From NCBI RefSeq assembly GCF_009296185.1, contig NZ_WBJR01000002.1, positions 248,001 through 312,000 on the forward strand: 64,000 nucleotides of DNA. The letters run 5' to 3'. Numbering within the stretch: the first letter of the stretch is position 1; each line of letters opens with the position of its first letter. The position numbers and the translations under genes are program-made. The notes under the pieces were generated by a model. That model searched no databases. It had not been told where the DNA came from and saw only the letters and a program-made list of their open reading frames with translations. This stretch comes from Hydrogenovibrio sp. JE_KL2. Its GTDB lineage: Bacteria > Pseudomonadota > Gammaproteobacteria > Thiomicrospirales > Thiomicrospiraceae. Positions 4,279-58,744 of this stretch are shown here, piece by piece.

Positions 4279-4297
4279 CCCCAACCTGGCAGATTTT
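4279..4297 (+). repeat. Dispersed 19-bp motif, copy 1
   Basis: Exact CCCCAACCTGGCAGATTTT, 25 bp after the stop of the TauE/SafE gene and upstream of the porin control region. One of ten intergenic copies, all on the + strand. Confidence 0.9.
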
Positions 4298-4328
4298 CAT
4301 CAAATTGCCAACCCACACTTCAGTCAAC

Positions 4329-4339
4329 TTTGTTTACAA
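4329..4339 (+). promoter_or_regulatory. Candidate activator-binding site upstream of porin
   Basis: TTTGTTTACAA, identical to boxes upstream of the ABC operon and of cynS. It lies about 118 bp before the -24 element, in the usual range for enhancer-type activators. In this copy TGT-N12-ACA spacing can also be read. Confidence 0.5.
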
Positions 4340-4456
4340 ATACAAACAAATTGTTAACAAAACACAACATCTAACCACTTGATTTAGCTTAATTTTTAAG
4401 GTTTTTTATTGCCGTTATAAAGCTAGTTTATTGATTCTATTCAGGTTTCCTAATAT

Positions 4457-4472
4457 TGGCGCGACGAATGCG
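4457..4472 (+). promoter_or_regulatory. Sigma-54 (-24/-12) promoter of the porin gene
   Basis: TGGCGC-GACGA-ATGCG places GG and GC with the 10-bp gap needed by sigma-54. The start codon lies about 30 bp downstream, leaving room for a short leader with AGGAG. The third base pair of the -24 element is less typical (TGGCGC rather than TGGCAC). Confidence 0.6.
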
Positions 4473-4502
4473 AAAAGAAAAGTCGCAACATAGGAGACAG
4501 TT

Positions 4503-5744
4503 ATGAACAAACACACTTTAGTCAAACACATTCACGCCATCCTGACGGGCTCGGCTGTGGGGTTAGCAACTTTTGGCGCGCAAACCGCCATGGCCGACGA
4601 ATTTACCGATGCACTAACTGGCGGGAAAGCAAACGTAGACATCCGTCTGCGTTATGAAGGCGTCAACCAAAAAGGGAAAGACGATGCTTCCGCCTTTACC
4701 GAAAGAACCCGTGTCGGTTATCAAACCGGCGATTTTAAAGGGTTCACCGGTTTCGTAGAAATGTCTGGAACAGAAGCCATTGGTAACCGAAAAGATTATT
4801 ACGTTGGCGCAGGCCCAGGGGCTGGCGGTGATTCGACTAAAGCGGTTGTTCTAGACCCAACCATTACCGTTCTTAACCAAGCATGGATAGCCTATAAGAT
4901 CGGTAGCACTTCTATCAAGGCCGGTAAGCAACGCATCATTTTTGATACGCGCTTCTTAGGAAATGTCGGCTGGCGTCAAACCGAGCAGGTTTACACAGGG
5001 GTGACGTTAAAAACCGCCATCATTCCAAAAACGATGCTGGACTATGCCTACATCACCGACACGCGTAACCCTATCGGAGTTGACCGCATCATGAAAACTC
5101 ATGCATTGCAGGCGGTTTACAGCGGGATTCCTTTCGGCAAACTGACGGCTTACGCTTACTTGATCGACTACGATCTGGACACTTTGGGCGCTGCGGAAAA
5201 AGACAGCCAAACCACCGGTATTCGATTCGCCGGGAAAACCGGTATCGGCTCAGACATGAAGGCGATTTACCACGCCGAGTACGCAACACAGGGCAAATAT
5301 GCCGACAGCAAAAACATCGGTGGCGACTATATCCGAGCTGAATTAGGACTAGGCTACAAAACGGGTTCTATCGTACTGGGTCAGGAAAAGCTGGGCGGAA
5401 ACGGCACGCATGCCTTCCAAACACCTTTAGGAACGGTACATTTATATAACGGTTGGGCGGATATGTTTATCGGGCCTGCTGGCGGTACCCCTGCTAACGG
5501 TTTGGTAGACACTTACCTTAACCTTTCCGGTAAAGCTCTGGGCATGAAACTTGCGGCGATTTATCACGATTTCAAAGCGGATAAAGGCGGCTCTAAGTAC
5601 GGTACGGAATACGATCTATTGGCGGCTAAAAAATTCGGCAAGGTCTATACCGCGGGCGTTAAATACGCTTCTTTCAGCGCAGATAATTCATCCACTTACA
5701 AAAACACCAACAAACTTTGGGTTTGGGGTGAAATCAAGTTTTAA
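4503..5744 (+). CDS. Outer-membrane porin-like beta-barrel protein (OprD/alginate-export-like)
   Basis: Probable substrate-specific outer-membrane channel. 413 aa: a signal peptide ends near AQTAMA (about residue 31), followed by alternating amphipathic strands such as ANVDIRLRYEGVNQ and AGVKYASFSADN, and the last residue is Phe, as in outer-membrane barrels. The segment WIAYKIGSTSIKAGKQRI is typical of porins that resemble OprD or the alginate-export family. It has its own sigma-54 promoter and an activator box shared with the downstream ABC importer, so it probably lets that importer's substrate into the periplasm. It is followed by a strong terminator, so it is transcribed separately. The exact family is uncertain. 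Confidence 0.72.
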   Translation: MNKHTLVKHIHAILTGSAVGLATFGAQTAMADEFTDALTGGKANVDIRLRYEGVNQKGKDDASAFTERTRVGYQTGDFKGFTGFVEMSGTEAIGNRKDYYVGAGPGAGGDSTKAVVLDPTITVLNQAWIAYKIGSTSIKAGKQRIIFDTRFLGNVGWRQTEQVYTGVTLKTAIIPKTMLDYAYITDTRNPIGVDRIMKTHALQAVYSGIPFGKLTAYAYLIDYDLDTLGAAEKDSQTTGIRFAGKTGIGSDMKAIYHAEYATQGKYADSKNIGGDYIRAELGLGYKTGSIVLGQEKLGGNGTHAFQTPLGTVHLYNGWADMFIGPAGGTPANGLVDTYLNLSGKALGMKLAAIYHDFKADKGGSKYGTEYDLLAAKKFGKVYTAGVKYASFSADNSSTYKNTNKLWVWGEIKF

Positions 5745-5769
5745 CAGTTAACCATACCAATGAAGTCTT

Positions 5770-5794
5770 GCCCGCTTAATGCGGGCTTTTTTTT
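5770..5794 (+). terminator. Rho-independent terminator after porin
   Basis: GCCCGC-TTAAT-GCGGGC hairpin followed by eight T residues, 25 bp after the porin stop. Confidence 0.9.
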
Positions 5795-5916
5795 GCCTCA
5801 ATCAAAAACAGGCAAAAAGCAGGTGCCACCGCTGATTAATAAGACAAACAAAACCGCTTTTGGCGAAATTCGCCAGTCTGCACCAAAACCTTACAATTAC
5901 TAACAAATTGTGCAAC

Positions 5917-5927
5917 TTTGTTTACAA
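5917..5927 (+). promoter_or_regulatory. Candidate activator-binding site upstream of ABC operon
   Basis: TTTGTTTACAA, preceded by AAC exactly as at the porin copy. It lies about 74 bp before the -24 element. Nearby TGT-N12-ACA arrangements (for example near 5932) add possible half-sites. Confidence 0.5.
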
Positions 5928-6000
5928 AAACTGTCTACAGAATGTAACAAAAAACGATAAATTTCACTTATGTCTTTGATTTAAAAGAACAAATAATAGC

Positions 6001-6016
6001 TGGCATCTCCTAAGCT
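6001..6016 (+). promoter_or_regulatory. Sigma-54 promoter of the ABC importer operon
   Basis: TGGCAT-CTCCT-AAGCT has the invariant GG and GC at the correct spacing, with start ATG about 43 bp downstream. It is the only recognisable promoter in the 264-bp gap after the porin terminator. Confidence 0.65.
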
Positions 6017-6058
6017 AAATAGATATTAAATAAAATTCATTTATGGAACACATTAAAT

Positions 6059-6850
6059 ATGACGACACATTCTTCAAGCGTTTGGATAGCAGAACTATCC
6101 CACAGTTACAAAAAGCAAGCTCCTCAGGTTTTGACCAATATCAACCTGAGTATTCCTAAAGGTCAGCTAACTGCGATGATCGGTCGAAGCGGTTGCGGTA
6201 AGTCTACTTTGCTGCAAATGATTGCCGGCCTACTGTTGCCATCGGACGGTGCGGTTCGCATCGGTGGTAAGACCGTGGTTAAACCCAGTGCGAAATGGAA
6301 CATGATGTTTCAAAAACCTTCGCTTTATCCCTGGATGAGCGTTCGTGAAAACGCAGCGTTAGGATTGGTTTTCGCTGGCACTTACAAACAAAAACAAGAT
6401 CGAGTAGATGAGTTGTTGGACATGGTCGGTTTGTCTGAGCACAAAGACAAGAACGTACAACAGCTTTCCGGTGGTCAACAACAACGTGTTGCCCTCGCTC
6501 GCTCTTTGGCGACAGAGCCGGAAATCCTGCTGTTGGACGAACCATTTTCGGCATTGGACGCTTTTACCCGTACCGCCCTACAAACCGAAGTAGCACAAAT
6601 TTGTCATGAGCAAGGCATCACAATGATTATGGTTACCCATGATATTGAGGAAGCCATCGCCATGGCCGACAAAGTTGTCATCATGAGTCATAACCCAGGG
6701 GAAATCGTCGGAGATCTGGATGTTCCCCTTACTTATCCGAGAGACCGCAGCGCAGCGGATTTTATTGAGTTGAAAGAAACCCTATTCAACCAATTCGAGC
6801 AAATCGACTTAGCCAAACAAAAAGAAATGGCTGAAGTCGCAAATCAATAA
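6059..6850 (+). CDS. ABC importer ATP-binding protein, SsuB/TauB/NrtD family
   Basis: Cytoplasmic ATPase driving a nitrate/sulfonate/taurine-type importer. 263 aa with Walker A GRSGCGKSTLL (about residues 41-51), a Q-loop near MMFQKPSLYPW, the signature LSGGQQQRVALARSLA, Walker B ILLLDEPFSALD and the switch His in MVTHDIEEA. It is the first gene of a three-gene operon with its binding protein and permease. The order (ATPase, binding protein, permease) differs from the common binding protein-first arrangement. An upstream ATG at 6043 is out of frame, so 6059 is kept, though its ribosome-binding site is weak. Cyanate is a tempting substrate because cynS is in the same regulon, but the sequence alone does not show this. 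Confidence 0.85.
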   Translation: MTTHSSSVWIAELSHSYKKQAPQVLTNINLSIPKGQLTAMIGRSGCGKSTLLQMIAGLLLPSDGAVRIGGKTVVKPSAKWNMMFQKPSLYPWMSVRENAALGLVFAGTYKQKQDRVDELLDMVGLSEHKDKNVQQLSGGQQQRVALARSLATEPEILLLDEPFSALDAFTRTALQTEVAQICHEQGITMIMVTHDIEEAIAMADKVVIMSHNPGEIVGDLDVPLTYPRDRSAADFIELKETLFNQFEQIDLAKQKEMAEVANQ

Positions 6851-6870
6851 TTTATTAAGGAGTATTCCCC

Positions 6871-8121
6871 ATGTGTCATTTATGTGAATGGAACGATAAA
6901 GACTCGAATGATTATGTATTCAACCCGGTAAAAGGCCGTCGTGAGTTCATTTTGGACTCTATGGCTGCAGCCGGGGGATTGGCCGCTGCGATGTCTTTGC
7001 CAAACACGGCATTTGCTAATATGGAAATGCCGGAAGACGAAGTAGTCCGTATCGGTTATATCCCGATTACTGACGCCAGTGCACTTTTGGTTGCACACGC
7101 AATGGGCTTTTTCGAAGACGAAGGTCTGAAAGTCGCTAAACCAACTTTGATTCGCGGCTGGTCGCCATTGATTGAAGGGTTTGCTGCCAAGAAATTCAAC
7201 TTGGTTCATTTCCTGAAGCCGATTCCAATTTGGATGCGCTACAACAACAACTTCCCGGTAAAAATCACCGGTTGGGCGCACACCAACGGTTCCGGTGTTG
7301 TGGTCGGTAAACATACCGGCATCGAAGACTTCAAAGGCTTGGCAGGCAAGCAAGTGGCAGTGCCTTACTGGTACTCCATGCACAATATCGTGCTACAGAT
7401 GGCATTGAAAAATGCCGGACTAGAGCCTGTTATTCAAGATCAGACGGATAAGTTGAAACCAAATCAAGTTAACTTACAAATCATGCCGCCACCAGATATG
7501 CCGACCGCTTTGGCTGCAAGAAAAATCGACGCCTATATCGTGGCAGAACCTTTCAATGCTGCCGGTGAAATGTTGGCTGGCGCAAAAATGATTCGCTTTA
7601 CCGGCGACATCTGGGAAAACCATCCTTGTTGTGTTGTTTGTATGCACGAAGAACATACAGAAAAGAAAAAAGAATGGTCACAGAAAGTCATGAATGCCGT
7701 CGTCAGAGGCGCGATGTACGCTCAGGAAAACAAAGAAGAAGTCGCCAAAATGCTCTCACGTGAAGGTAAACGTTACTTGCCGATGAAAGCAAACGTGGTA
7801 TTGAAAGCAATGACTGACTACTCAACAACAGAGTATGCGCATCCAGATGCCATTCACCATCCAGACTGGAAGGTTGGTCGCATTGACTTCAACCCATGGC
7901 CATATCCTTCTGCAACCGAGTTCATTGTGGATCACTTGAAAACAACTTTGGTTGCCGGAGACACCACTTTCCTGCAAAAGCTGGATAGTAAATTTGTAGC
8001 GAAAGACTTGGTGAACTACGAATATGTGAAAAATGCAATGGATAAATTCGATGCTTGGGATAAAGTCGAAGGCGTTAACCCAGCTCATCCAACAACACGT
8101 GAAGAGGTATTTAAACTGTGA
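6871..8121 (+). CDS. Tat-exported NrtA/CmpA-like ABC substrate-binding protein
   Basis: Periplasmic receptor for the importer. 416 aa. Unusually, the N-terminus starts with a Cys pair (MCHLCEWN) and about 20 polar residues before a twin-arginine signal (GRREFILDSM, Arg 23-24), with likely cleavage after AFA near residue 49. The mature protein follows the NrtA/SsuA fold: RIGYIPITDASALLVAHAMG, an FVxFKG-like middle and AARKIDAYIVAEPFNAAG. A second Cys motif (HPCCVVC) lies near residue 250. Family ligands include nitrate, cyanate, bicarbonate, aliphatic sulfonates and pyrimidine precursors. Tat export plus Cys motifs might mean a bound cofactor or metal. Its last four bases overlap the permease start. 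Confidence 0.82.
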   Translation: MCHLCEWNDKDSNDYVFNPVKGRREFILDSMAAAGGLAAAMSLPNTAFANMEMPEDEVVRIGYIPITDASALLVAHAMGFFEDEGLKVAKPTLIRGWSPLIEGFAAKKFNLVHFLKPIPIWMRYNNNFPVKITGWAHTNGSGVVVGKHTGIEDFKGLAGKQVAVPYWYSMHNIVLQMALKNAGLEPVIQDQTDKLKPNQVNLQIMPPPDMPTALAARKIDAYIVAEPFNAAGEMLAGAKMIRFTGDIWENHPCCVVCMHEEHTEKKKEWSQKVMNAVVRGAMYAQENKEEVAKMLSREGKRYLPMKANVVLKAMTDYSTTEYAHPDAIHHPDWKVGRIDFNPWPYPSATEFIVDHLKTTLVAGDTTFLQKLDSKFVAKDLVNYEYVKNAMDKFDAWDKVEGVNPAHPTTREEVFKL

Positions 8122-8954
8122 GTGAAACAACTACAACACCAATGATGGTTTCAGTAGTCAATAAAGCCACGTCGGCTTTCCGGCAGCTACCTGTTTGGGT
8201 GCAGAATGTCAGTTTTTCGACCTTCGGTATGGCGATACTACTGTTGTTATGGTGGCTTGGGGGCATCTGGATCGCCTCCAATCCTGATACGGAATCTTTT
8301 GCCAGTTTTGCACCTGCGCCAGCATTCGAAGCACTTTACGAGCTGGTGGCAAGTGGTGAGATCTGGCAGACCATCTGGTCAAGTTTGTATCGTATCCTTG
8401 TCGGCTTATTCTGGGCGATTATCCTCGGTGTGCCGGTCGGTATTATCATTGGCTATTTCTCTACCATTAGACAAATCGCCAACATGCCATTCCAGCTATT
8501 GCGAATGATCAGTCCATTGGCTTGGATGCCAATCGCAGTATTGGTCTATGCAACTTGGGACAACGCGATCGTCTTCCTAATCACCATCGCTGCGGTGTGG
8601 CCGATTGTTTTCGGTACGGCGCATGGGGTGCAACGTATTGATCCGCTTTGGTTCAAGGTCGCAAAAAACCTTGGCGCAGACGGTTATCAAATGTTGATGC
8701 GCGTCATTATGCCAGCGATTGCTCAAGACGTTTTCGCCGGTATTCGATTAGCAGTAGGGGTTGCCTGGGTTGTATTGGTGCCTGCCGAGTACCTTGGGGT
8801 CACCAGCGGGCTGGGCTATGCCATCAACGATGCGCGTGATACACTTGATTACGCCAAGCTAGCCGCTGTCGTTGTAGTCATCGGTATCATCGGATACATG
8901 CTAGACAGCATCGCGGCAAGGCTCATCAAACTCTACAGCTGGCGCATGGAATAA
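8118..8954 (+). CDS. ABC importer permease, SsuC/TauC/NrtB family
   Basis: Inner-membrane channel of the importer, 278 aa with about six membrane helices. The conserved cytoplasmic coupling loop appears as VAKNLGADGYQMLMRVIMPA, the family's variant of the EAA motif. The start is GTG at 8118, overlapping the binding-protein stop in GTGA, which implies translational coupling. A long N-terminal cytoplasmic lead (about 30 residues) precedes the first helix. It completes a one-permease, one-ATPase, one-receptor importer, presumably functioning as a homodimer. Confidence 0.85.
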   Translation: MSETTTTPMMVSVVNKATSAFRQLPVWVQNVSFSTFGMAILLLLWWLGGIWIASNPDTESFASFAPAPAFEALYELVASGEIWQTIWSSLYRILVGLFWAIILGVPVGIIIGYFSTIRQIANMPFQLLRMISPLAWMPIAVLVYATWDNAIVFLITIAAVWPIVFGTAHGVQRIDPLWFKVAKNLGADGYQMLMRVIMPAIAQDVFAGIRLAVGVAWVVLVPAEYLGVTSGLGYAINDARDTLDYAKLAAVVVVIGIIGYMLDSIAARLIKLYSWRME

Positions 8955-9030
8955 TCATTTGGCAACGTTAGCCAAAACCATAAACTCAACACAACCGGTT
9001 CAATCCAACAGGTTTGCGGCGATATGTCGC

Positions 9031-9059
9031 AACGCCTTGAGGCTTGAGCCTTTTGCGTT
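9031..9059. terminator. Possible shared hairpin between ABC operon and rof-like gene
   Basis: AACGC near 9031 can pair with GCGTT near 9055, enclosing an inner GGCT/AGCC stem. T-rich sequence follows on the + strand. It lies between convergent genes; a second small hairpin (TTGCG/CGCAA) sits just before it. Strength uncertain. Confidence 0.35.
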
Positions 9060-9262
9060 TATACGACTGTGATGTCTGTCACGTCATCCAAACAAATCTC
9101 ATCGCCGGATTCGGTGATGACAAACTCTTTGCCCTCGCGCGTCCGAAGATCCTTCAGATGCCCGACAAAGTCAGGTTTGTTTGCATGAAATGACAGTTTG
9201 ACCTGCTGATGTTTCATGATGGCGATTTCAAATTGATCGTACAAATGACATGAAATGGACAT
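9059..9262 (-). CDS. Rof-like small protein (Rho-binding antiterminator family)
   Basis: Predicted 67-aa protein starting at MSISCHLYDQFEIAIMKH (ATG 9262). The pattern resembles Escherichia coli Rof/YaeO: an ISCxxYDxxE start, a central VKLSF strand, a DLRTREGKEF segment and a C-terminal LDDVTDI strand. Rof binds Rho and reduces termination. A longer minus ORF exists upstream (to 9343), but its extra residues are Cys-rich and not family-like. The gene lies between the ABC operon (convergent) and the sigma-54 activator (divergent, 46 bp away). Whether it acts on this regulon or is just a neighbour is not known. Confidence 0.65.
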   Translation of the reverse strand: MSISCHLYDQFEIAIMKHQQVKLSFHANKPDFVGHLKDLRTREGKEFVITESGDEICLDDVTDITVV

Positions 9263-9308
9263 AGCGGAAGCCCCTATAAAAGCAACAATACCAAACGAAA
9301 GAAAGCCT

Positions 9309-11006
9309 ATGACGACACAATTACAAGAATTCGATATAGCCAACGACTCCGAGTTTGTCGTTATTCAAGAAGCGGCTCAACAGATTGAGCACGCCAATGA
9401 TCCCGATTTCGCAATATACAATATTTTGAGTATTTGTTCGCGTTTAATGGGGCTTAACCGCGGGCGTGTTTTCTTGCAAGACCCGGAATCCGAAACCCTT
9501 TATGCCGCTTACGGTTACGGCCTGACACAAGAAGAAATTGAGCGCAGTCGCTTTGGGGCGAAAGAAGGGATTACCGGGAAAGTCATGCACCTAGGGCGCG
9601 CAGTGGTCGTACCCGACATTGACGAAGAAACCGACTATCTCTTCCGTACCGTTGACCGTGAAACCCTCCCTCAAGAGTCGGTCTCCTTCCTGGCGGTACC
9701 GATTATCCGTAAAAACACACGCATTGGCGTATTGGCGTTTAACCGTCTGAAAAACCGTAAACGCTCGTTTGACCGTGACTTGAGCTTCTTGAAAATTCTT
9801 TCTCTATTCATCGGCGAGATTCTAGCGGTGCATCAAATGCTGGAGCGCCAAACCCTCATTCTCAAACAAGAAAACGAACAGCTACGAAGCGTTGCCCTGG
9901 GGCAAGGTAGCCAATACGGTATTATCGGCGAAAGCCCATTATTGCTTCAGGCGTTGGATAAAGCCTCACGTGCTGCCAACACGCCGGTAACCGTCATGTT
10001 AAAAGGCGAATCTGGAACGGGGAAAGAGAAATTCTCCCGTATGATTCACCGTGCCAGCAACCGCAAAGACAATCCATTTATCGCCATCAACTGTGCCGCC
10101 ATTCCAACTGAGCTACTGGAAGCTGAATTGTTCGGTTATGAAAAAGGCAGTTTCACGGGCGCGACCCAGCAGAAAAAAGGGAAGTTTGAGTTGGCTAATC
10201 ACGGCACACTTTTCCTCGATGAAATCGGGGATTTGGACTTCGCCTTGCAAGCCAAGTTGTTGCGGGTACTCGAAGATAAAGCGGTCACTCGCATTGGGGG
10301 CACACAAGACATCCCAATAGACGTTCGCGTGATCGTTGCATCGCACAAGGACCTCTATAAGTCGGTCAACGAAGGTTCGTTCCGTCTTGATTTGTTCTAT
10401 CGATTCAACGTCTTCCCAATCGAACTGCCGGCACTACGCGATCGTCATGGTGATATCCGCACGTTGATCAGACATTTCTTGAACCAAACAAACCAAGACT
10501 ATCTGACCAATGCGATTCTGGAGCCGGAAGCCATCACCTTCCTGGAAACCTACTCTTGGCCAGGAAATATTCGTCAGCTTGAAAACGTCATCAAACGTAG
10601 TGTTTTGCTGGCTGAAGACGATAAATTCGTCACCCTGGGGCTGGTGCAAAAAATCATTCACGAAGAGAGCGCGATTACACACAATACCTCGCTGTCATCA
10701 CCAGCGCTAGTGGCAGAGACCGCAGTTAACGCAGCACCTCAAAATATTACCTCCAACTGGGAAGCGCCTGCCAGAAACGGAACCAACGGTGGGTTTAGCA
10801 CCTATCCTAGTGATGACGAGCGTATGGAAAACTGGCAGGGCAATGATGGTAAACGCGCTTACTGGAAGGTTTCGGATGATGAAAAGGAAAACCTGATGAT
10901 GGCGTTGAAGCAAGCACGTGGCAACAAAACCCGCGCCGCAATGCTACTGAATATGACTCCGAGACAGTTCAGCTACCGCATGAGTAAGCTCGGTATTGAT
11001 ATGTAA
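9309..11006 (+). CDS. Sigma-54-dependent activator with GAF, AAA+ and Fis-type HTH domains
   Basis: Enhancer-binding transcription activator, likely the regulator of the surrounding island. The start is at MTTQLQEF (565 aa). Domains in order: N-terminal GAF sensor (about 20-190), AAA+ ATPase with Walker A GESGTGKEKF near residue 234, sigma-54 contact loop GSFTGA near 280 (GAFTGA with A to S), Walker B TLFLDEIGDL near 300, then a linker and a C-terminal Fis-like helix-turn-helix (GNKTRAAMLLNMTPRQFSYR). The architecture is that of NifA/VnfA-type activators, which sense a signal through GAF without a kinase partner. The -24/-12 promoters and repeated TTTGTTTACAA boxes nearby fit this role. The ligand is unknown. 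Confidence 0.88.
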   Translation: MTTQLQEFDIANDSEFVVIQEAAQQIEHANDPDFAIYNILSICSRLMGLNRGRVFLQDPESETLYAAYGYGLTQEEIERSRFGAKEGITGKVMHLGRAVVVPDIDEETDYLFRTVDRETLPQESVSFLAVPIIRKNTRIGVLAFNRLKNRKRSFDRDLSFLKILSLFIGEILAVHQMLERQTLILKQENEQLRSVALGQGSQYGIIGESPLLLQALDKASRAANTPVTVMLKGESGTGKEKFSRMIHRASNRKDNPFIAINCAAIPTELLEAELFGYEKGSFTGATQQKKGKFELANHGTLFLDEIGDLDFALQAKLLRVLEDKAVTRIGGTQDIPIDVRVIVASHKDLYKSVNEGSFRLDLFYRFNVFPIELPALRDRHGDIRTLIRHFLNQTNQDYLTNAILEPEAITFLETYSWPGNIRQLENVIKRSVLLAEDDKFVTLGLVQKIIHEESAITHNTSLSSPALVAETAVNAAPQNITSNWEAPARNGTNGGFSTYPSDDERMENWQGNDGKRAYWKVSDDEKENLMMALKQARGNKTRAAMLLNMTPRQFSYRMSKLGIDM

Positions 11007-11042
11007 ACGCCTTCTTTTTTAGGTTTCATCAACAAAAAAAAC

Positions 11043-11072
11043 AAAAAAAGAGAGCATTTAGCTCTCTTTTTT
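11043..11072. terminator. Bidirectional Rho-independent terminator
   Basis: GAGAGC-ATTTA-GCTCTC hairpin flanked by an A-run on the left and six T on the right, so it can stop transcripts from both the activator gene and the convergent rubredoxin-reductase operon. Confidence 0.88.
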
Positions 11073-11098
11073 CTTTTGGGGCAATGTGGGCAATGCTG

Positions 11099-12466
11099 TT
11101 AAGCACTCAGGGCTTTATACAGTTTCGCTGCCTGATTCACCTTATCTCCCGATAACGCAAACCCTTTCACTTGCTCTTCTACCAGATAACTGACTTCTGA
11201 ACTGCTCTCGTCATTGGACACAATAGACCAGTCGCCATGTGCATCCTTCTTAAGTGGCGGACAGGTAATAATAGAAAGAGATGGGGTTTTGGTTTTCACC
11301 AATGGCGGCATCACCTTAAACTCTGCCGAGGCATCACCCGCAATATGCTTGGCAATGGTTTCCGCTTCACGACGAATCGGCTCCAAGAACGCCTGTAGCT
11401 CTCCGTCGATTTCGATACAGTCACCAATTGCATAGATGTCTGCATCCGAGGTTTGCAGCTGATGGTTCACCAAGATTCCACGTGAAACATCCAACTTGGC
11501 TTTCTTCGCCAAATCGACGTTCGGCTTCAGACCAATTGCCGCCACCAACAAGTCAGTGGTTAATTGAGAGCCGTCATCCAAACTCAAGCGGTAACCGTCG
11601 TCTTGATGATCAATCGCTTCTAATTGGGCTTCGTACAAAATCTCGATTTGATTATTTTCCAGCGCCGCCGCCAATTTATGAGACAGTTGCGATGGCAACA
11701 GGTTTCTCATTAGAGTATCGCCTCTCACCAACAGCGTCACTTGGTAGTTTTGGCTAATCAAATCTTCCGCCATTTCCACCGCGATCAATCCGCCGCCCAA
11801 CAAGGAGATGTGCTTTTTACCTTCAATTGCACCACGGAAACGCTTATAGGCCGCCAGGTCATTAATGGTCATTACATCTGAGACAGCATCACCAGACAGC
11901 ATCGGCTTAATGGCACTGGCACCCGTTGCCAGAATCAACTTACTATAGTTGATGCTACCGCTTGTCGTCATCAGGCGTTTACGATCGGTGTTGATGCTCA
12001 TCACTTTTGCCCGTGTTTTGATACCAATACCGAGTTCAAGCGCTTTTTCTTCTGCGGCAAACTCAATCAAATCCTGTGCGTCTCGACCTTGAGACATCGC
12101 CATGGAAATCGCAGGTTTTGGATACACGGCACCGTCACACCCGGTAACGATGCTGACATCTGCATCCGGCAAATGCTGTTTGATTTGCTCGGCAACATTC
12201 CACCCGGCATAACCCGCACCGATAATGACAATGCTTTCTTTTCCACCCACTTTGGATTTCGGTTTAACGACATCCGACTTAGGCCTTGGTGCATCGCTCA
12301 TCAACACAAAGTCTGATTTAGACACCAAACAAAGTGGGCAATACCAATCATCTGGGATGTCTTCAAAACGCGTGCCGGGAGCCAATCCGCTATCTGGATC
12401 GCCTTCGGCTTCGTCATATATCAAACCGCAGGTTTTACAAAGATATTTACGAAATGGCTCGGACAT
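11099..12466 (-). CDS. Rubredoxin-FAD-dependent reductase fusion
   Basis: Electron-transfer flavoprotein with a built-in rubredoxin. 455 aa. Residues 1-55 form a rubredoxin with both metal knuckles, C10-K-T-C13-G and C43-P-L-C46. Residues 78-440 form a pyridine-nucleotide disulfide-type reductase: the FAD site [12 protein letters not shown] (about 81-92), an NAD(P) site with [13 protein letters not shown] near 215, and the C-terminal FAD motif ADIYAIGDC. In the family such enzymes take electrons from NAD(P)H and pass them to a rubredoxin-fed oxygenase, oxygen or nitric oxide. It is the last gene of a minus-strand trio with an acyl-CoA-dehydrogenase-like flavoprotein and an OsmC-like protein, and is their likely electron supplier. 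The partner is inferred. Confidence 0.85.
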
Positions 12467-12500
12467 GATATTTCTCCTTTTACCGAATACTTAACTTCGT

Positions 12501-13586: not shown

Positions 13587-13625
13587 CTCAAATCCCGGCT
13601 CGGCAATGCCGAACCGGTTTTGCCA

Positions 13626-14162: not shown

Positions 14163-14241
14163 TTTTATCTCCTAAACAATGGTTAATTTGAATTTGGTTA
14201 AGTTTTCTCTTTCGTGTTTTGTTAAAACTCATCCTCCTTAT

Positions 14242-14257
14242 AACCATGTTTGTGCCA
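14242..14257 (-). promoter_or_regulatory. Imperfect sigma-54-like promoter of the OsmC trio
   Basis: On the minus strand TGGCAC-AAACA-TGGTT has a perfect -24 block, but the -12 GC is GT. It lies 80 bp before the OsmC start. It may be weak, activator-dependent, or a chance match. Confidence 0.35.
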
Positions 14258-15069: not shown

Positions 15070-16302
15070 TTACAGCTTGAACACGCCCGGTGATTTTTTC
15101 TTCGCCGTTTTTTTCGCTTTCGCCAACTGCACCATGACTTCTGCGTGGGAGGTGTGTGGGAACATATCCATAAACCCGGCTTTACGAAGTTGATAGCCTT
15201 GTTTTTCCAATAGCTGCACATCTCGAATCAGTGTCGAAGCATTACAAGAAACATAAACGATAATTTGTGCATTGAGTTTGCCCATTTGCTGACAAATCGA
15301 CATCGCGCCTTGACGGCCGGGATCAAGCAATACACGGTCATACTTTTGATTGTGGAACCAATGAAAATCTTTAGCTGACTCGAACAAATCGGCTTTGTAG
15401 AAAGTCGCTTGCGACAAGCCATTTTTTTCAGCATTCTTTTGTGCAAAATCTACCAGGTTGGGGTCGCCTTCCACACCGATGACTTTGGATACTTTTTGTG
15501 CCATCGGCAACGTAAAGTTGCCCACACCGCAGAACAAATCCAATACGGCATTGCTTGCTTCCAACTCGAGCCAATCCATTGCCTGTGCCACCATCTTCTG
15601 GTTGATTTCGGCATTAACCTGAATAAAGCCATCTTTTGGAAAATCGAACACCAACTCGTTCAATGCATAGTGCGCTTGCGTGATGGTTTCGTCATCCGAC
15701 CAAATCATTTGTGGTGGCTCGCCGGGCAAGACAGATTCCACCAAGGTGACTTCTTTCAGTGCGCGGCTGGCGAGCGGTAAACATTGCTCACGTTTCACGT
15801 GTAACGCTTGGTTCATTTCCGTAGTGAGCAGCGGGCAGGATTCAATATCCACCATCTCACTGGAGGCTTTGGCACGGAAGCCGAATTTGGCAATTTTATC
15901 GGCTTTGTGTTTGCCGTAAACAAAGCGCGCACGACGGCGATAGGCTTTGTCTTCTCCCACCAAAGGCGCGACGATTTTGCATTTTTTGGCGTCCACCGCT
16001 TTGGTGAGTGCGGTCAGAAAATGCTTGGCTTTCCATTCACGTTGCGCAGCAATATCCGCATGCTGTAACTGACAACCACCACACTCGCCATAGACCGAAC
16101 AAAAAGGGTCAATGCGATGTTCGGACGGAGACAATACTTCTACCAACACCGCTTCATCGTAGGTCTTTTGTGACTGGGTGATTCTCGCGGTTACTCTATC
16201 GCCGGGAATCGCCCCCTCGATAAAAACGGTTTTGCCATCTACACGACCGATACCGCGTCCATCATGAGACAAATCAACAATAGCAATAGACTTTTTATTC
16301 AT
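15070..16302 (-). CDS. rlmD: 23S rRNA (uracil-1939-C5)-methyltransferase
   Basis: S-adenosylmethionine-dependent methyltransferase of the RlmD/TrmA family, modifying U1939 of 23S rRNA. 410 aa. The N-terminal TRAM domain (about 1-60) is followed by the iron-sulfur cluster cysteines in FCSVYGECGGCQLQH. The Rossmann SAM site reads VLDLFCGVGNFTLPMA, and the catalytic Cys lies in YVSCNASTLIRD. Residues 280-286 (DPNLVDF) are encoded by an exact copy of the dispersed 19-bp motif. It is last in an operon with a stomatin-like gene and nfeD (6-bp and 8-bp gaps). Confidence 0.93.
   Translation of the reverse strand: MNKKSIAIVDLSHDGRGIGRVDGKTVFIEGAIPGDRVTARITQSQKTYDEAVLVEVLSPSEHRIDPFCSVYGECGGCQLQHADIAAQREWKAKHFLTALTKAVDAKKCKIVAPLVGEDKAYRRRARFVYGKHKADKIAKFGFRAKASSEMVDIESCPLLTTEMNQALHVKREQCLPLASRALKEVTLVESVLPGEPPQMIWSDDETITQAHYALNELVFDFPKDGFIQVNAEINQKMVAQAMDWLELEASNAVLDLFCGVGNFTLPMAQKVSKVIGVEGDPNLVDFAQKNAEKNGLSQATFYKADLFESAKDFHWFHNQKYDRVLLDPGRQGAMSICQQMGKLNAQIIVYVSCNASTLIRDVQLLEKQGYQLRKAGFMDMFPHTSHAEVMVQLAKAKKTAKKKSPGVFKL
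15445..15463 (-). repeat. Dispersed 19-bp motif inside rlmD
   Basis: Minus strand reads CCCCAACCTGGTAGATTTT, an exact match to the T-variant seen at 19185 and 27721. It encodes the end of D280 through F286, frame GAC-CCC-AAC-CTG-GTA-GAT-TTT. Confidence 0.8.
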
Positions 16303-19184: not shown

Positions 19185-19203
19185 CCCCAACCTGGTAGAT
19201 TTT
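19185..19203 (+). repeat. Dispersed 19-bp motif, copy 2
   Basis: CCCCAACCTGGTAGATTTT (T-variant), starting 4 bp after the transglutaminase-like stop, before the convergent HxlR gene. Confidence 0.9.
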
Positions 19204-20393: not shown

Positions 20394-20412
20394 CCCCAAC
20401 CTGGCAGATTTT
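20394..20412 (+). repeat. Dispersed 19-bp motif, copy 3
   Basis: Exact CCCCAACCTGGCAGATTTT, 32 bp after the nitroreductase stop and 3 bp before the stop of the convergent GGDEF gene. Confidence 0.9.
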
Positions 20413-26421: not shown

Positions 26422-27207
26422 ATGAATGCATCTACCAAAGCCCCCGTAATGTTTGTCAGCCACGGCGCGCCAACCTACGCACTTCACCCGGGGCAAGCCG
26501 GCGCAACACTGAAAACGGCCTTGCCGGATTTCACCTCAGTGAAAGGCATTATCCTACTGTCTGCGCATTGGATTTCCCGTGGGCAAGAAGTCATGGCTGC
26601 CGCACACCCTGACACCCTCTACGATTTCGGCGGGTTTCCCGACGAACTCTATCAGATCGAATACCCGGCTCCGGGTGACCCCAACCTGGCAGAAAAAGTT
26701 GCCCACTTGATGAATGATGCCGGGCTGAACGCACACTTAAATCCGGCCAGAGGATTCGATCACGGCGCATGGGTACCGATGATGCATCTTTTCCCAAATG
26801 CCGATATGCCTATCGTGCAAGTCTCCATCAACTACAACCTTTCGCACCCTGAATTATTTCAAGTCGGTAAAGCACTTGCACCCTTGCGTGAAGAAGGCTA
26901 TGCCATCATCGGCTCCGGCAGCCTGACGCATAATCTGCGCGATGTGCGCTGGGATGAAACCGATCCCTTACCTTATGTGCTACGCTTTCAGCAAGACATT
27001 AAACACCGTTTGCAAAATCGGGATTTCGACACCTTGGTGAACCATGCGGAACGCATTGGCGACTTTACGAAAGCCCACCCGACAGACGATCACTATTTGC
27101 CTTTGGTGATTGCATTAGGGGCGGTTGAAGAAACCGATCACTTTCGTGTTTTAGAAGGGGGCATTGAATTTGGCGCCTTGTCCATGGACTCTTATTTGTG
27201 GCATTAA
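26422..27207 (+). CDS. 4,5-DOPA-extradiol-dioxygenase-like protein (YgiD family)
   Basis: 261-aa LigB-fold protein. Metal-ligand candidates are His in VMFVSHGAPTYAL, LLSAHW, and GFDHGAWVPMMHLFP, plus the conserved GSGSLTHNLRD. Plant and bacterial relatives cleave DOPA-like catechols; E. coli YgiD is a Zn-dependent member. It is preceded by AGGAGG 4 bp upstream. Residues D86-E91 are encoded by a 15-bp partial match to the dispersed motif, in the same frame as the other coding copies. Confidence 0.85.
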   Translation: MNASTKAPVMFVSHGAPTYALHPGQAGATLKTALPDFTSVKGIILLSAHWISRGQEVMAAAHPDTLYDFGGFPDELYQIEYPAPGDPNLAEKVAHLMNDAGLNAHLNPARGFDHGAWVPMMHLFPNADMPIVQVSINYNLSHPELFQVGKALAPLREEGYAIIGSGSLTHNLRDVRWDETDPLPYVLRFQQDIKHRLQNRDFDTLVNHAERIGDFTKAHPTDDHYLPLVIALGAVEETDHFRVLEGGIEFGALSMDSYLWH

Positions 27208-27720: not shown

Positions 27721-27739
27721 CCCCAACCTGGTAGATTTT
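27721..27739 (+). repeat. Dispersed 19-bp motif, copy 4
   Basis: CCCCAACCTGGTAGATTTT (T-variant), 3 bp beyond the mnmE stop but on the strand opposite to mnmE, between two minus-strand genes. It therefore argues against a simple 3'-UTR function. Confidence 0.9.
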
Positions 27740-39755: not shown

Positions 39756-39774
39756 CCCCAACCTGGCAGATTTT
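39756..39774 (+). repeat. Dispersed 19-bp motif, copy 5
   Basis: Exact CCCCAACCTGGCAGATTTT, 15 bp after the ChaN-like stop and just ahead of the terminator hairpin. Confidence 0.9.
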
Positions 39775-40667: not shown

Positions 40668-43595
<2,928 letters not shown>

Positions 43596-43825: not shown

Positions 43826-43844
43826 CCCCAACCTGGCAGATTTT
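43826..43844 (+). repeat. Dispersed 19-bp motif, copy 7
   Basis: Exact CCCCAACCTGGCAGATTTT, in the predicted 5' leader of prk, 97 bp before its ATG. Confidence 0.9.
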
Positions 43845-44949: not shown

Positions 44950-46860
44950 CTAACGCTGTACCGCTAAGGTCGCCTCCAACAAAATAGGATGGTCAATCTT
45001 CTGTTCAATGCGCTGCTTGATATGGTCAATATCCTTATTGCCTAAGCTCTTTTGCGACACCAACGTTGCAACAACAAAGTCCGGTTTGCCTTGCTTGCCG
45101 GTGCTGACTTTGACATCCCGGATCTCCACGCCATCGACTTCCCAGCCTTCCAATGCATACACCATGCTCTGCTCGGTGACCATTTGATGAAATGAGATGA
45201 CCAACGGAATACTAATTAAAATCACAAACGCCAAACTCCATGCCATGCCTTTTTTCGCCAAATGGAATGGGCTGTATCCCATCAGCAAGAAGGTCACTGC
45301 CGCCGCAAGGACAATACCAATTAAGTTAGTCACAAACAATAACGACGCGCCATAAAACACATCAAAATCATGCCAACCGATACCAACACCCGATACCGCT
45401 AAAGGAGGTACCAATGCCACCGCAATCGCCACACCTGCCATACTTTTGGCGACTTCCGAACGGGCATTGGCATAAGCACCTGCCACCCCGGAGATAATCG
45501 CTACCCCTAAATCCAGAATGGTCGGACTTAACCGTGCACTGATTTCATGGTTCATCACATGCAAAGGCAATAAAAAGGTCAGGATGGTTCCACAGCTGAG
45601 TGCCAACAAAATACCTGCAGCAAGCGTTTTGGCAGAGTGGATCATCATGTCGGTTTCTTGGCGTAGCACCCCCATCGACAGAGAAATAATCGGCGACATC
45701 AGCGGGGCGAGAATCATTGCACCGATAATCACTGGCGCGGAATTGGCAAACAGACCCAACGTTGCCAACAGGGTCGACAACACCATCAGCACCACATAGG
45801 ACTCTGAAAGTTTGGCATTTTCTTTCAGCGTGACAAAGGTCTCTTTGACTTCTTCGGGGTCGGCATGGTGAATCCACGGCAAGGGATAAGCGACCAATTC
45901 TTCCACCCCTTGCCCGACCGGTAGGCCAGATACGCGAAGCGATTCTTTCAAATCGGTTTGTCCTGACTTTTCAGGCAGTAACTGCGTCAATATTCTTAAG
46001 GCATCCACCTGAACTTCGACTTCCACCTTTTCCGCATTATGCTCTTCGCCATTCAGGTAGTAATCGACTGTTTTGTTCGATGTCGAAATGGTCAGTTTTT
46101 CCGTCTTGACCATGCCCAGGTAGTTTCTGAGACGATTGTTTTGTCCTTTTCGCGGAAAGACCCGGCTAATCAGAAACCTGACTACCTCGGAAATACTCCT
46201 CGGAGCCAATACAATCGCATTCAAGCTGGATTCATCTTGCGGTATTTCGCCAACGATCGACTTGGTGAAATCACTGTCTGCCGGGCGATAAACGACGGCA
46301 ATTCCCAATGCTGCGGTATTGATAACCGTTTGCTTGGCGGTTTCCAAGCGAAAAGGGTTCAATCGCGTTTGGCTGAGGCTGAAAGTCAGTTTCAACAAAT
46401 TCTTTATCTTACTGAAAAAGCCCAAATCCACTTGCGAAGCCGGTGCCATGGTTTCACGTTTACCCAACATCACCGAACCGAAAACCAGCTCACCGTTACA
46501 GGTCATTAAATCTGCCAGGTTGGGGGTCTCGGTGCTTTGGATATCTGCCAGCGCATCCGGGAGTTTGGTTTTGATGGGAAAGCTGCGATAGAACCGGATG
46601 GCTTCAGGGTGCGGCAACACACCGACCTGCCAACCACCCTTGGAGGCAGCAGCGAGAAACTGACTCAGCTGCACATCACTTAGCCATACCAGTAGTCTGC
46701 TGTCTTCATCAAATGATGGAGAAGACTCTTCGGTGAACAAGCTCTGAAAAGACTGCGGCTCAACATCCCAATCGGCAAGTGACGGTAAGACGGTCTCTTC
46801 AAATTCCGTTTGCTTGTCAGCATCAAAGACCAGTGTATATTTAAACGCTGATTCTGCCAC
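44950..46860 (-). CDS. DUF389 (TIGR00341-type) membrane protein
   Basis: 636 aa. The N-terminal about 330 residues are soluble, with little similarity I can name. A DUF389 membrane region follows (about 350-560): SYVVLMVLSTLLATLGLFAN, APVIIGAMILAPLMSPIISL and ANARSEVAKSMAGVAIAVAL. A short C-terminal soluble domain ends the protein. The biochemical role of the family is unknown. It is last in an operon with hemF and hslR. Residues 112-118 (TPNLADL) are encoded by an 18/19 match to the dispersed motif. Confidence 0.8.
   Translation of the reverse strand: MAESAFKYTLVFDADKQTEFEETVLPSLADWDVEPQSFQSLFTEESSPSFDEDSRLLVWLSDVQLSQFLAAASKGGWQVGVLPHPEAIRFYRSFPIKTKLPDALADIQSTETPNLADLMTCNGELVFGSVMLGKRETMAPASQVDLGFFSKIKNLLKLTFSLSQTRLNPFRLETAKQTVINTAALGIAVVYRPADSDFTKSIVGEIPQDESSLNAIVLAPRSISEVVRFLISRVFPRKGQNNRLRNYLGMVKTEKLTISTSNKTVDYYLNGEEHNAEKVEVEVQVDALRILTQLLPEKSGQTDLKESLRVSGLPVGQGVEELVAYPLPWIHHADPEEVKETFVTLKENAKLSESYVVLMVLSTLLATLGLFANSAPVIIGAMILAPLMSPIISLSMGVLRQETDMMIHSAKTLAAGILLALSCGTILTFLLPLHVMNHEISARLSPTILDLGVAIISGVAGAYANARSEVAKSMAGVAIAVALVPPLAVSGVGIGWHDFDVFYGASLLFVTNLIGIVLAAAVTFLLMGYSPFHLAKKGMAWSLAFVILISIPLVISFHQMVTEQSMVYALEGWEVDGVEIRDVKVSTGKQGKPDFVVATLVSQKSLGNKDIDHIKQRIEQKIDHPILLEATLAVQR
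46508..46525 (-). repeat. Dispersed 19-bp motif inside the DUF389 gene
   Basis: Minus strand CCCCAACCTGGCAGATTT followed by A instead of T: 18 of 19 matching. It encodes the end of T112 through L118, in the same reading frame as the copy in rlmD. Confidence 0.75.
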
Positions 46861-51950: not shown

Positions 51951-51969
51951 CCCCAACCTGGCAGATTTT
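51951..51969 (+). repeat. Dispersed 19-bp motif, copy 8
   Basis: Exact CCCCAACCTGGCAGATTTT, in a 517-bp gap, 158 bp upstream of the AhpD-like gene's start codon on the opposite strand. No + gene ends just before it. Confidence 0.9.
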
Positions 51970-56517: not shown

Positions 56518-57126
56518 ATGTCACATCAGGTTAAAGTATGGGATATCGTCGTTAGGAGCTTCCATTGGTCGCTCGTTCTGACATTTTTCCTCGCTTACCT
56601 AACCGGTGACGACAGCATTCTCCATGCTTACACCGGCTATGTCGTCTTAACGCTGGTAATCATCCGCATCATTTGGGGCATAATCGGCACACGTTATGCA
56701 AGATTCACCAACTTCGTTTACAGTCGAGAAACGGTGAAAACCTACATTGGCTCCATCCTGCAATTTCGTCCGATTCATTACATCGGTCACAACCCGCTGG
56801 GCGGTTGGATGATTGTCCTGCTTTTATCGTTTTTGTTGCTCACCACCTGGACAGGTCTAGAAGCCTATGCCGCGGAAGGTAAAGGACCTCTAGCAGGGTT
56901 GTCACTCGATTTAAGTCCTATCGGCACCGCCTTTGCGGATGGCGGCAAAAGCCACTCTATTTGGAAAGGCATCCATGAATTTCTTGCCAACACCACTTTG
57001 TTCCTTGTCATTATCCACATCCTCGGTGTACTATTTTCCAGTGTGGTACATAATGAAAACCTGATTCGATCCATGATTACCGGTGAAAAAACCGTCTCCG
57101 ACGAGGACGACCATGAACGAAAATAA
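56518..57126 (+). CDS. Cytochrome b561-type membrane protein
   Basis: 202 aa from ATG 56518 (GGAGA upstream). Four membrane helices with candidate haem ligands: His in RSFHWSLV, ILHAYTGYVV, and two in the C-terminal half (IHEFLANT, VIIHILGVLF). It belongs to the prokaryotic b561/Ni-Fe hydrogenase cytochrome b family, accepting electrons from a periplasmic partner. No cytochrome c gene is adjacent. The GNAT gene overlaps its 3' end by 14 bp. Confidence 0.85.
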   Translation: MSHQVKVWDIVVRSFHWSLVLTFFLAYLTGDDSILHAYTGYVVLTLVIIRIIWGIIGTRYARFTNFVYSRETVKTYIGSILQFRPIHYIGHNPLGGWMIVLLLSFLLLTTWTGLEAYAAEGKGPLAGLSLDLSPIGTAFADGGKSHSIWKGIHEFLANTTLFLVIIHILGVLFSSVVHNENLIRSMITGEKTVSDEDDHERK

Positions 57127-57592
57127 CGCCCCTGAATACACCAGCCGCCTAGCGACTTTGGCAGACATGGATGCGCTCAACGACTTGTTGTGTGCATTAT
57201 TTCAACAGGAGGACGAATTCGTGCCGGATATCGCCGCGCAAACACGAGGCTTGACCGACATTTTGCAAAACCCGGCAATGGGTTGCATTCTGGTTTCATG
57301 TGAAACAACCGCGCCGGAAAACGTGAATGGCATGGTGAATTTGCTGTTCACCATCTCCACTGCGCTTGGCGGCAAAGTCGCCTTATTGGAAGACATGGTG
57401 GTTTCTCAGAAGGCGCGCCATCAAGGCATCGGATCACTTCTGATTCAAGCCGCGATTGCCGAAGCCAAGCGCCAAGACTGCCTTCGCATCACCCTACTGA
57501 CCGATCACCACAATACTGCAGCACAAGCCTTCTATGAAAAGCACGGTTTTCAAGCATCGCCTATGCGGCCTTACCGCCTAATGCTTGAGTGA
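57113..57592 (+). CDS. GNAT-family N-acetyltransferase
   Basis: 159 aa. Start ATG 57113 lies inside the end of the cytochrome b gene (14-bp overlap), with GAGGAC upstream. Acetyl-CoA fold: LEDMVVSQKARHQGIGSLLI carries the Q/RxxGxG pantetheine-binding loop, then DHHNTAAQAFYEKHGF. The substrate is unknown. Last of the compact six-gene run; its stop is followed by a 19-bp motif copy after 1 bp. Confidence 0.88.
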   Translation: MNENNAPEYTSRLATLADMDALNDLLCALFQQEDEFVPDIAAQTRGLTDILQNPAMGCILVSCETTAPENVNGMVNLLFTISTALGGKVALLEDMVVSQKARHQGIGSLLIQAAIAEAKRQDCLRITLLTDHHNTAAQAFYEKHGFQASPMRPYRLMLE

Positions 57593-57593
57593 C

Positions 57594-57612
57594 CCCCAAC
57601 CTGGCAGATTTT
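57594..57612 (+). repeat. Dispersed 19-bp motif, copy 9
   Basis: Exact CCCCAACCTGGCAGATTTT, 2 bp after the acetyltransferase stop and 67 bp before the phospholipase A start. Confidence 0.9.
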
Positions 57613-57678
57613 CATACTTTATTGCGTTATCACGCCGTTCAATTTATGCTGTTATCGGACTTCCTCTAGAGAACAGAA

Positions 57679-58671
57679 ATGTTTAAAACCGCTTGGTTCA
57701 CCGCCATATTGTCCACTGTTATCAGCTTGAATGTTTTGGCAGACACCGCTGCGCCGAAATATGATGCTGCTTGTGTACAAAATGCACTTGAAACTCAGTC
57801 GCCTGACACTAGCCTACAGCAGCTGCGGGATCAGTGTACGCTTGATCAAGCGGCATTGAATCAGGGAAAGACTGCGCTTGATGCTCGATTGTTATCGGAG
57901 CAAAAGACAAAATACGACCCTTTCTCCCTACAACCCTATCGACCCAATTACTTGATTATCGGTTCCTACAACTTCGCCGGCACTAATGAACGCCCTTTTC
58001 AACAGGCGACTTTACCCCAGGCAACGCACTTTGAGCCTTATGAAGTGAAGTTTCAAATCAGCCTGAAAATTCCCATTGCAGACAATTTGTTTGGATTGGG
58101 CGATCACTGGTATGTCGCTTATACCAACCGATCCTTTTGGCAGGCCTATAGCCACAATATTTCCTCCCCCTTTCGTGAAACCAATCACGAGCCAGAGGCA
58201 TGGATAAGCTTCGACAATAAAATGGAGATTTTTGGCTGGCGCAATCGTTTGATAGATGTTGGTATCAGCCATCAATCAAACGGACGATCTGATCCCTTAT
58301 CTCGCTCCTGGAATCGCATCTATACGCGCCTGATTTTTGCCAAAGGCAGTTCTGTTTTTGCCATTAAGCCCTGGATTCGTATACCGGAATCGGCTTCAAG
58401 CGACGATAACCCGCATATCTCGCATTACATGGGTAATGTCGAATTTACCTTCGCCAGTAAAATCGAAAAGCATCATTTTAAAATCATGGTAAGGAACAAC
58501 TTCAGCGAGACCGACAATAAGGGGGCGATGGAACTGGGTTACAGTTATCCGGTACACCGAAATATGAAAGCCTACATCCAGTGGTTCTACGGTTATGGGG
58601 AAAGTCTGATTGATTACAACTACCGCAACAACAGTGTCGGCATTGGGGTGCAATTCACTAGCTGGCTCTAG
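57679..58671 (+). CDS. pldA: Outer-membrane phospholipase A
   Basis: Calcium-dependent outer-membrane phospholipase that removes misplaced phospholipids from the outer leaflet. 330 aa with a signal peptide to about VLA (residue 20). The barrel contains the catalytic region GISHQSNGRSDPLSRSWNRI, with the His, Ser and Asn of OMPLA. Strands alternate in the usual way, and the last strand ends NNSVGIGVQFTSWL. Single gene; the 19-bp motif flanks it on both sides (57594 and 58726). Confidence 0.93.
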   Translation: MFKTAWFTAILSTVISLNVLADTAAPKYDAACVQNALETQSPDTSLQQLRDQCTLDQAALNQGKTALDARLLSEQKTKYDPFSLQPYRPNYLIIGSYNFAGTNERPFQQATLPQATHFEPYEVKFQISLKIPIADNLFGLGDHWYVAYTNRSFWQAYSHNISSPFRETNHEPEAWISFDNKMEIFGWRNRLIDVGISHQSNGRSDPLSRSWNRIYTRLIFAKGSSVFAIKPWIRIPESASSDDNPHISHYMGNVEFTFASKIEKHHFKIMVRNNFSETDNKGAMELGYSYPVHRNMKAYIQWFYGYGESLIDYNYRNNSVGIGVQFTSWL

Positions 58672-58725
58672 TTTTATTTCTCTCTGCCGCTTTCACTTTT
58701 GAGTTCAATCAAGCCCACCGCTGAC

Positions 58726-58744
58726 CCCCAACCTGGCAGATTTT
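58726..58744 (+). repeat. Dispersed 19-bp motif, copy 10
   Basis: Exact CCCCAACCTGGCAGATTTT, 55 bp after the phospholipase A stop and 123 bp before the FMN reductase coding frame. Confidence 0.9.

Follow-up and report, generated by a model that had tools for sequence, protein, structure and literature searches.

According to the consulted parts of PMC12616744, only the Neisseriaceae and the Pasteurellaceae are known to discriminate DNA by short sequence words. The DNA uptake sequence (DUS) of the Neisseriaceae, read by the minor pilin ComP, is present in hundreds of dispersed copies inside and between genes, has family dialects that keep an inner core, and forms inverted pairs associated with terminators (PMC3630211 and PMC12616744, in the parts consulted). 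The uptake signal sequence (USS) of the Pasteurellaceae, for which ComN/PpdA is the predicted receptor, joins a core to a downstream A/T-rich tract and is also used in terminators (PMC12616744 and PMC13020248, same restriction); dialects and the use of inverted pairs as terminators are reported for the two systems across the consulted parts of these three papers. Here we describe a 19-bp word dispersed through the genome of Hydrogenovibrio sp. JE_KL2, as seen in a stretch of 64,000 nucleotides (the window; positions 248,001 to 312,000 of contig NZ_WBJR01000002.1, here C2) and in its relatives. Its properties match those of DUS and USS closely in kind, not in sequence. From sequence comparisons, the word is probably one dialect of a DNA-uptake-sequence-like system in the family of Thiomicrorhabdus, kept uniform by biased uptake.

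Searching with the pattern CCCCAACCTGGYAGATTTT (positions are window coordinates unless prefixed with a contig), we counted 366 copies with at most one mismatch in the 2,438,885 bases and 15 contigs of this genome (G000), 189 forward and 177 reverse, against none for the reversed control pattern. Such hundreds of copies above chance on both strands are expected of an uptake sequence, and the core CCAACCTGG alone occurred 74 times in 464 kb where 2.85 were expected. The window holds 13 matches with up to three mismatches (0.02 expected from shuffles); 12 of them, 10 on the plus and 2 on the minus strand, have no more than one mismatch (Table 1). An earlier note on the window had listed ten copies; all are where it placed them, nine exact and the one at 40895 with one mismatch, and it was right that they exceed chance. 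Its statement that the word always lies on the plus strand is wrong, because minus-strand copies exist at 15445 and 46507 and the genome is balanced. An all-plus orientation is therefore rejected: the genome scan that the note had proposed as a check refutes a genome-wide strand bias, and a local bias in one arm remains.

In the 464-kb sample the information content drops to about zero outside the 19 bp, bearing out the earlier observation that the flanks are unrelated. A 790-kb sample (C1 1-400000 and all of C2) yielded 137 sites with at most two mismatches, including 84 exact and 40 single-mismatch sites; since 25 of those 40 mismatches fall at position 1, the constrained word is CCCAACCTGG-Y-AGATTTT. 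The cumulative GC-skew minimum of C2 lies at C2:336500, about 88.5 kb in window coordinates and beyond the window end. Sites to its left, on the window side, are 52 plus and 16 minus, those to its right 5 plus and 3 minus, and those in the C1 sample 26 plus and 35 minus (p 0.31). With C1 taken as a positive-skew arm, the C-rich strand holds 90 of the 137 sites (p 0.0003), an effect that comes from one arm. This mild preference is what a recombination-stimulating (Chi-like) or replication-oriented motif has in its favour, but orientation does not follow replication on both arms. Chi, FtsK-orienting polar sequences (KOPS) and matS are likewise overrepresented short words that differ between taxa; a length of 19 bp, intergenic enrichment and inverted pairs are unlike Chi. 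The consulted part of PMC3630211 treats Chi as such an overrepresented, taxon-specific word. Unlike Chi, KOPS and matS, the word described here has no consistent replication orientation, is longer and is enriched at convergent gene ends, and we regard a motif of this class as the least probable of the explanations weighed here. The skew minimum is about 54 kb from dnaA (window 34000), so the replication origin of G000 may lie away from dnaA; the earlier placement of copies on both sides of oriC is accordingly doubtful.

Gene context was derived with a simple, purpose-made gene caller on the 790 kb, which classified 135 of the 137 sites (two were dropped at contig starts). Convergent intergenic gaps, 15.0 kb in all, carry 38 sites, compared with 46 in 90.2 kb of tandem and 9 in 30.2 kb of divergent gaps, giving 93 intergenic sites; the other 42 lie inside predicted genes. 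Copies both inside and between genes, enriched in permissive places, are a property of uptake sequences. The claim that the word lies between genes thus stands for most sites and fails for the copies at 15445 and 46507, as for the 42 genic sites overall. In tandem gaps 23 sites run with the genes and 23 against, and genic sites include 26 on the same strand and 16 on the opposite one. This lack of dependence on gene direction suggests that the word acts as DNA, and that termination is a secondary use. It also disfavours the earlier suggestion of a small-RNA target or another RNA-level role, as both orientations occur inside genes.

Close neighbours (gap of at most 25 bp) numbered 5 in C1, 3 in C2 and 10 in the sample of the congeneric genome G010, all on opposite strands, against 0.42, 0.66 and 0.75 expected under random placement (18 against about 1.8 in total, with some orthologous pairs counted twice because the C2 and G010 samples overlap). 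Three such inverted pairs, located elsewhere in the genome, folded into strong, terminator-like hairpins (z -5.5, -8.2 and -7.4), and two single copies gave nothing significant, so that the earlier statement of no hairpin is correct for single copies and fails for pairs. Inverted pairs near gene ends with predicted hairpins would fit the terminator use described for uptake sequences. Together with the concentration at convergent gene ends, they could also suggest that the word is in essence a transcription terminator or an RNA 3'-end element, but most copies have no close partner, tandem orientation is even and the genic copies occur on either strand. We consider this very unlikely.

Conservation was measured against G010. 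Of the 76 C2 sites, 63 have an alignment in the G010 sample (mean identity 88%) and 13 lie in unaligned DNA; the 61 C1 sites are excluded from the count because the sample does not include that region. All but one of the 63 are recognisable in G010, 56 with at most two mismatches and 6 with small length differences, the last having four mismatches. Identity at intergenic sites reaches 97.3% within the motif (830 of 853 positions), compared with 83.0% and 84.4% in the 30-bp flanks and 88.8% in all aligned intergenic DNA, and 26 of 43 fully aligned intergenic sites are identical, as against 25% of random aligned intergenic 19-mers. Genic sites behave alike (97.1%, with 87.8% and 92.0% around). 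Within the intergenic sites only positions 1 and 12 (Y) are free, at 84% identity. At orthologous sites the motif has thus changed less than the DNA around it, as an uptake sequence would.

A second congeneric genome, G003, carries a different spelling. In 464 kb of G000 we found CCAACCTGG 74 times and CCAGCCTGG once, and in 160 kb of G003 we found CCAACCTGG 0 times and CCAGCCTGG 20 times. In the sampled overlap (77% overall identity) 13 G000 sites align to G003, one of them in a segment a base short that was left out. Each of the 12 fully aligned sites has A at position 6 in G000, a base that the search pattern largely fixes, and G in its G003 counterpart; the generic A-to-G change is 10%. 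The other 18 motif positions differ in 17 of 216 cells. More widely, a relative has a dialect site at 13 of 32 gene ends with a G000 site and at 30 of 315 ends without one (p 1.7e-5, an optimistic value because seven genomes and shared sites were pooled); two genomes, G004 (0/6) and G006 (0/1), share no gene-end sites with G000. On this sequence pattern, a concerted change of one base at fixed places would be a prediction of biased uptake and hardly of selection acting site by site.

These two comparisons bear on whether the word is a small mobile or decaying repeat that spread recently, similar to a repetitive extragenic palindrome (REP) or a miniature inverted-repeat transposable element (MITE). 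In favour of such a repeat, direct copies at 57594 and 58726 enclose a phospholipase A1-like gene (57679-58671). At the corresponding place G010 lacks the gene and keeps one copy of the word, flanked on the left as at 57594 and on the right as at 58726, with a clean join at the word; the gene is a clean gain or loss between repeats. In addition, C2 has 13 segments of 500 bp or more without alignment to the G010 sample, and in 9 of them a copy lies no further than 60 bp from an edge, a count inflated because alignments tend to stop at conserved blocks. Extended common ends or flanks and positions that differ between relatives, as in REP or MITE elements, were not found: there are no common flanks, 62 of the 63 alignable C2 sites are in place in G010, and another spelling occupies the same places in G003. 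Conservation in place and the G003 switch largely refute a mobile repeat, which we hold to be highly improbable; the earlier idea of a remnant of a spreading repeat loses ground since the sites hold orthologous positions and change sequence in concert.

Across the genus and family, the word appears in dialects. Among ten other genus genomes the G000 motif occurs 319 times in G010, 152 times in G003 and not at all in the remaining eight. For six of these eight, 40-kb samples were taken, and every one is enriched for the palindrome CCAGGCCTGG or for words holding most of it. Among 93 relatives searched, CCAGGCCTGG exceeds 200 copies in 26 of 57 family genomes, about half (7 of 10 genus relatives, the single genome of g4, all nine g6 relatives and nine g3 genomes), and reaches at most 35 in each of 35 genomes of other families. 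It is counted 0 times in G000, 0 in G003, 1 in G010 and 0 in G007. Other spellings explain the low values of G003 and G010, and no known spelling was found in G007, whose sample, like those of G016 and G017, is too short for judging enriched words. Thiomicrorhabdus cannonii (G029), which belongs to another genus of the family than G000 and of which strain HH3 is placed by NCBI in the Piscirickettsiaceae, Thiotrichales, Gammaproteobacteria, has a candidate spelling, being enriched for ACAGGCCGGG; G015 and G022 are also enriched for CAGGCCTGC. CCAACCTGG, CCAGCCTGG and CCAGGCCTGG share an inner core, as uptake-sequence dialects do, and the T-tract is present in some species only. It follows the palindrome at nearly the G000 spacing in G001, G006, G008, G009 and G013, weakly in G004 and G005, and was not seen in G015, G022 and G036. 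An A-tract on the left together with a T-tract on the right flanks 36 of 118 palindrome sites over ten genomes (0 of 22 in G015, G022 and G036), and a tract on a given side is found at 47% and 42% of sites, compared with 19% and 14% at control positions. Of 97 classified sites of the palindromic dialect in seven genomes, 60 are genic. A search of a phage collection gave one weak match, and a pattern scan of a wider genome contig collection at least seven stretches with one match each.

Core competence genes have matches throughout the genus. The 'Competence' (ComEC) model PF03772, TIGR00426 (presumably ComEA; 10 over cut-off) and the dprA model each match in 11 of 11 genus genomes, and pilT_fam exceeds its cut-off in nine, the exceptions being G001 and G009. 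Strong sub-threshold matches to PilQ occur in G001, G002, G005, G006, G008 and G009. Contig C9 of G000 carries an MshE/T2SSF/secretin cluster; a pseudopilin cluster at G000:C8 yielded no receptor candidate. Of the five genomes without a strong PilQ match, three (G000, G003 and G010) carry the changed dialect.

The word shares with DUS the dispersed genic and intergenic copies, the dialects and the inverted pairs, and with USS a core followed by an A/T-rich tract (CCTGG...ATTTT). Unlike DUS, it is an unrelated word with a longer continuous footprint (18-19 bp) and a palindromic commoner dialect, and is accompanied by no ComP match, the controls being silent too. Unlike USS, which has a GCGG inner core, it has an unrelated core, a T-tract only 3-4 bp from it and a palindromic dialect in relatives. 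In the open-access literature we found no report of uptake sequences for Hydrogenovibrio, Thiomicrospira, Thiomicrorhabdus, the Piscirickettsiaceae or the Thiotrichales, and the inspected occurrences of CCAGGCCTGG as text look unrelated. The consulted part of PMC1939737 mentions neither Thiomicrospira nor CCAGGCCTGG, and no 'palindrom' was found in PMC3868556.

Two-fold symmetry is at the centre of the main rival, which keeps alive the earlier option of a protein-binding site: a dimeric chromosome-organising or nucleoid-associated protein would occupy hundreds of copies of the word; its full site would be the symmetric CCAGGCCTGG, extended in some species by A/T tails, and the asymmetric G000 form would be derived from it. 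The symmetry of the commoner dialect, tails included at the 36 sites noted above, conservation at orthologous positions and enrichment between genes would all agree with such a protein. The switch of a base at 12 of 12 sites and the replacement of spellings would, however, need very many separate selective fixations, and would come naturally under biased uptake; moreover, 40-kb bins show no concentration around the skew minimum, the terminus not having been located, and many sites are inside genes. We judge the binding protein to be unlikely, and of the options raised in the earlier note the evidence favours a DNA-uptake-like signal.

Several observations weigh against an uptake sequence. The first group concerns the word. 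One copy per about 6.7 kb is a low density for an uptake sequence, and a palindromic dialect is unlike DUS or USS; its symmetry, with tails at part of the sites, suggests a dimeric DNA-binding protein. In G010, DNA 31-60 bp from intergenic sites is 89.7% and 93.7% identical, above the near flanks. The position-6 switch consists of 12 sites in one genome pair, chosen by the G000 word. At most 37 copies of CCAGGCCTGG are held by 31 of the 57 family genomes, and 40-kb samples of G012, G018 and G042 (genus g3) show no enriched word though ComEC is encoded; the uptake signal may be lost or sparse there. C2 segments unaligned to the G010 sample hold 0.349 sites per kb with edge sites included, compared with 0.171 in the remaining DNA, although imported foreign DNA would be expected to be poor in the word and uptake sequences to be scarce in recently acquired DNA; these segments may also be present at other places in G010. 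Such scarcity is a usual and not a defining feature of uptake sequences, and imports from kin with the same dialect would lack it. The richness does not fit simple foreign import; it may reflect exchange with same-dialect kin, or alignments ending at conserved words.

The second group concerns the machinery. With matches in 82 of 93 genomes, ComEC is nearly universal and its presence does not discriminate. G001 and G009 hold 673 and 677 copies of CCAGGCCTGG yet lack pilT_fam over cut-off, PilQ exceeds its cut-off in none of the 11 genus genomes, and G000, G003, G010, G004 and G007 have weaker secretin matches only. Pilin-type N-methylation matches number 2, 2 and 3 in G000, G010 and G003, compared with 7, 8 and 7 in G008, G001 and G004. 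The ComP_DUS model PF16732 matched in 0 of 11 genus genomes, with the controls silent too and the ComN/PpdA type not searched for as such, and we found no report of competence in these genera in the open-access literature. On balance the word, a candidate uptake sequence, likely works like one.

Variable DNA was seen in and near the window. Window segments unaligned to the corresponding G010 region include 4238-14537, in which a sigma-54 activator (9255-11006) matches the NifA model below cut-off, and 16277-18594. At C2:238990-242010 (L102, L103) four plus copies stand about 1 kb apart with 18-55 bp alike around the word, mostly in DNA unaligned to G010, which is possibly an array of variable genes. 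No locus related to the phospholipase-like protein was found in the genome contig collection. We rejected a reading of the word as a cassette boundary or attachment site, to which the direct pair 57594/58726 had pointed: overall, spacings of 700-1500 bp are near random (C1, 3 against 6.2 expected; C2, 14 against 9.4; G010 sample, 11 against 11.0).

Table 1 Copies of the 19-bp word in the window, with open reading frames (ORFs) and the state in G010.
Feature	Position	Strand	Context
Exact copy (C form)	4279..4297	+	25 bp 3' of stop of ORF 3501-4253(+); none in corresponding G010 region; adjoins 10.3-kb segment unaligned to G010 sample
Exact copy (T form)	15445..15463	-	Within ORF 15070-16302(-), RlmD-like; exact in G010; overlooked in earlier note
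Exact copy (T form)	19185..19203	+	3 bp 3' of stop of ORF 18597-19181(+), faces ORF 19212-19586(-); exact in G010
Exact copy (C form)	20394..20412	+	Between convergent ORFs 19730-20362(+) and 20415-21818(-); at edge of segment unaligned to G010
Exact copy (T form)	27721..27739	+	3 bp beyond stop of mnmE (27743-29131, -); exact in G010
Exact copy (C form)	39756..39774	+	Between convergent ORFs 38701-39741(+) and 39816-40754(-); copy in opposite orientation in corresponding G010 gap
Copy with one mismatch	40895..40913	+	Upstream of gyrB (41145-43595)
Exact copy (C form)	43826..43844	+	Downstream of gyrB; exact in G010
Copy with one mismatch	46507..46525	-	Within ORF 44950-46860(-); G010 copy with one further mismatch; overlooked in earlier note
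Exact copy (C form)	51951..51969	+	Intergenic; G010 copy with one mismatch (first base)
Exact copy (C form)	57594..57612	+	1 bp 3' of stop of ORF 57083-57592; left member of direct pair around phospholipase A1-like gene
Exact copy (C form)	58726..58744	+	Right member of direct pair around phospholipase A1-like gene
Degenerate copy, 3 mismatches, core CCCAACCTGGCAGA intact	3413..3431	-	Within ORF 2290-3501; G010 identical
Degenerate copy, CCCCAACCTGGCAGA then A in place of T	26679..26697	+	Within ORF 26422-27207; G010 identical

In the uptake system that we propose, a receptor at the cell surface, part of a machine resembling type IV pili, would bind the word on free DNA, ComEA and ComEC would bring one strand in, and DprA and RecA would recombine it into the chromosome. 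Fragments with the preferred word would be imported more often, and recombination would spread and repair the word wherever mutation creates one. Such biased import would lead to hundreds of copies in both orientations, mostly in low-disturbance places such as gene ends and intergenic DNA, and more constant than their surroundings. If receptor preference drifts, all sites would drift together and give rise to species dialects, and inverted pairs may have been co-opted as transcription terminators. We further suggest, more tentatively and with the balance somewhat against it, a third and independently evolved DNA self-recognition outside the Neisseriaceae and Pasteurellaceae. Its commoner word would have two-fold symmetry (CCAGGCCTGG, which several species carry within AAAAT-nn-...-nn-ATTTT) and would presumably be recognised by a receptor that is dimeric or paired, rather than by a known ComP- or PpdA-like pilin; the symmetry would have been lost in one lineage of the genus, with sites rewritten in place to CCCCAGCCTGG and CCCCAACCTGG, probably in that order.

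If this is true, the rewritten sites are a record of change in a mating barrier set by DNA uptake. The position-6 switch offers a direct test of genome-wide word rewriting when the reader changes. A receptor could be sought by comparing sister genomes within the family whose dialects differ or in which none was detected. Another, unrelated family with such a word would show that this kind of bacterial kin recognition arises repeatedly.

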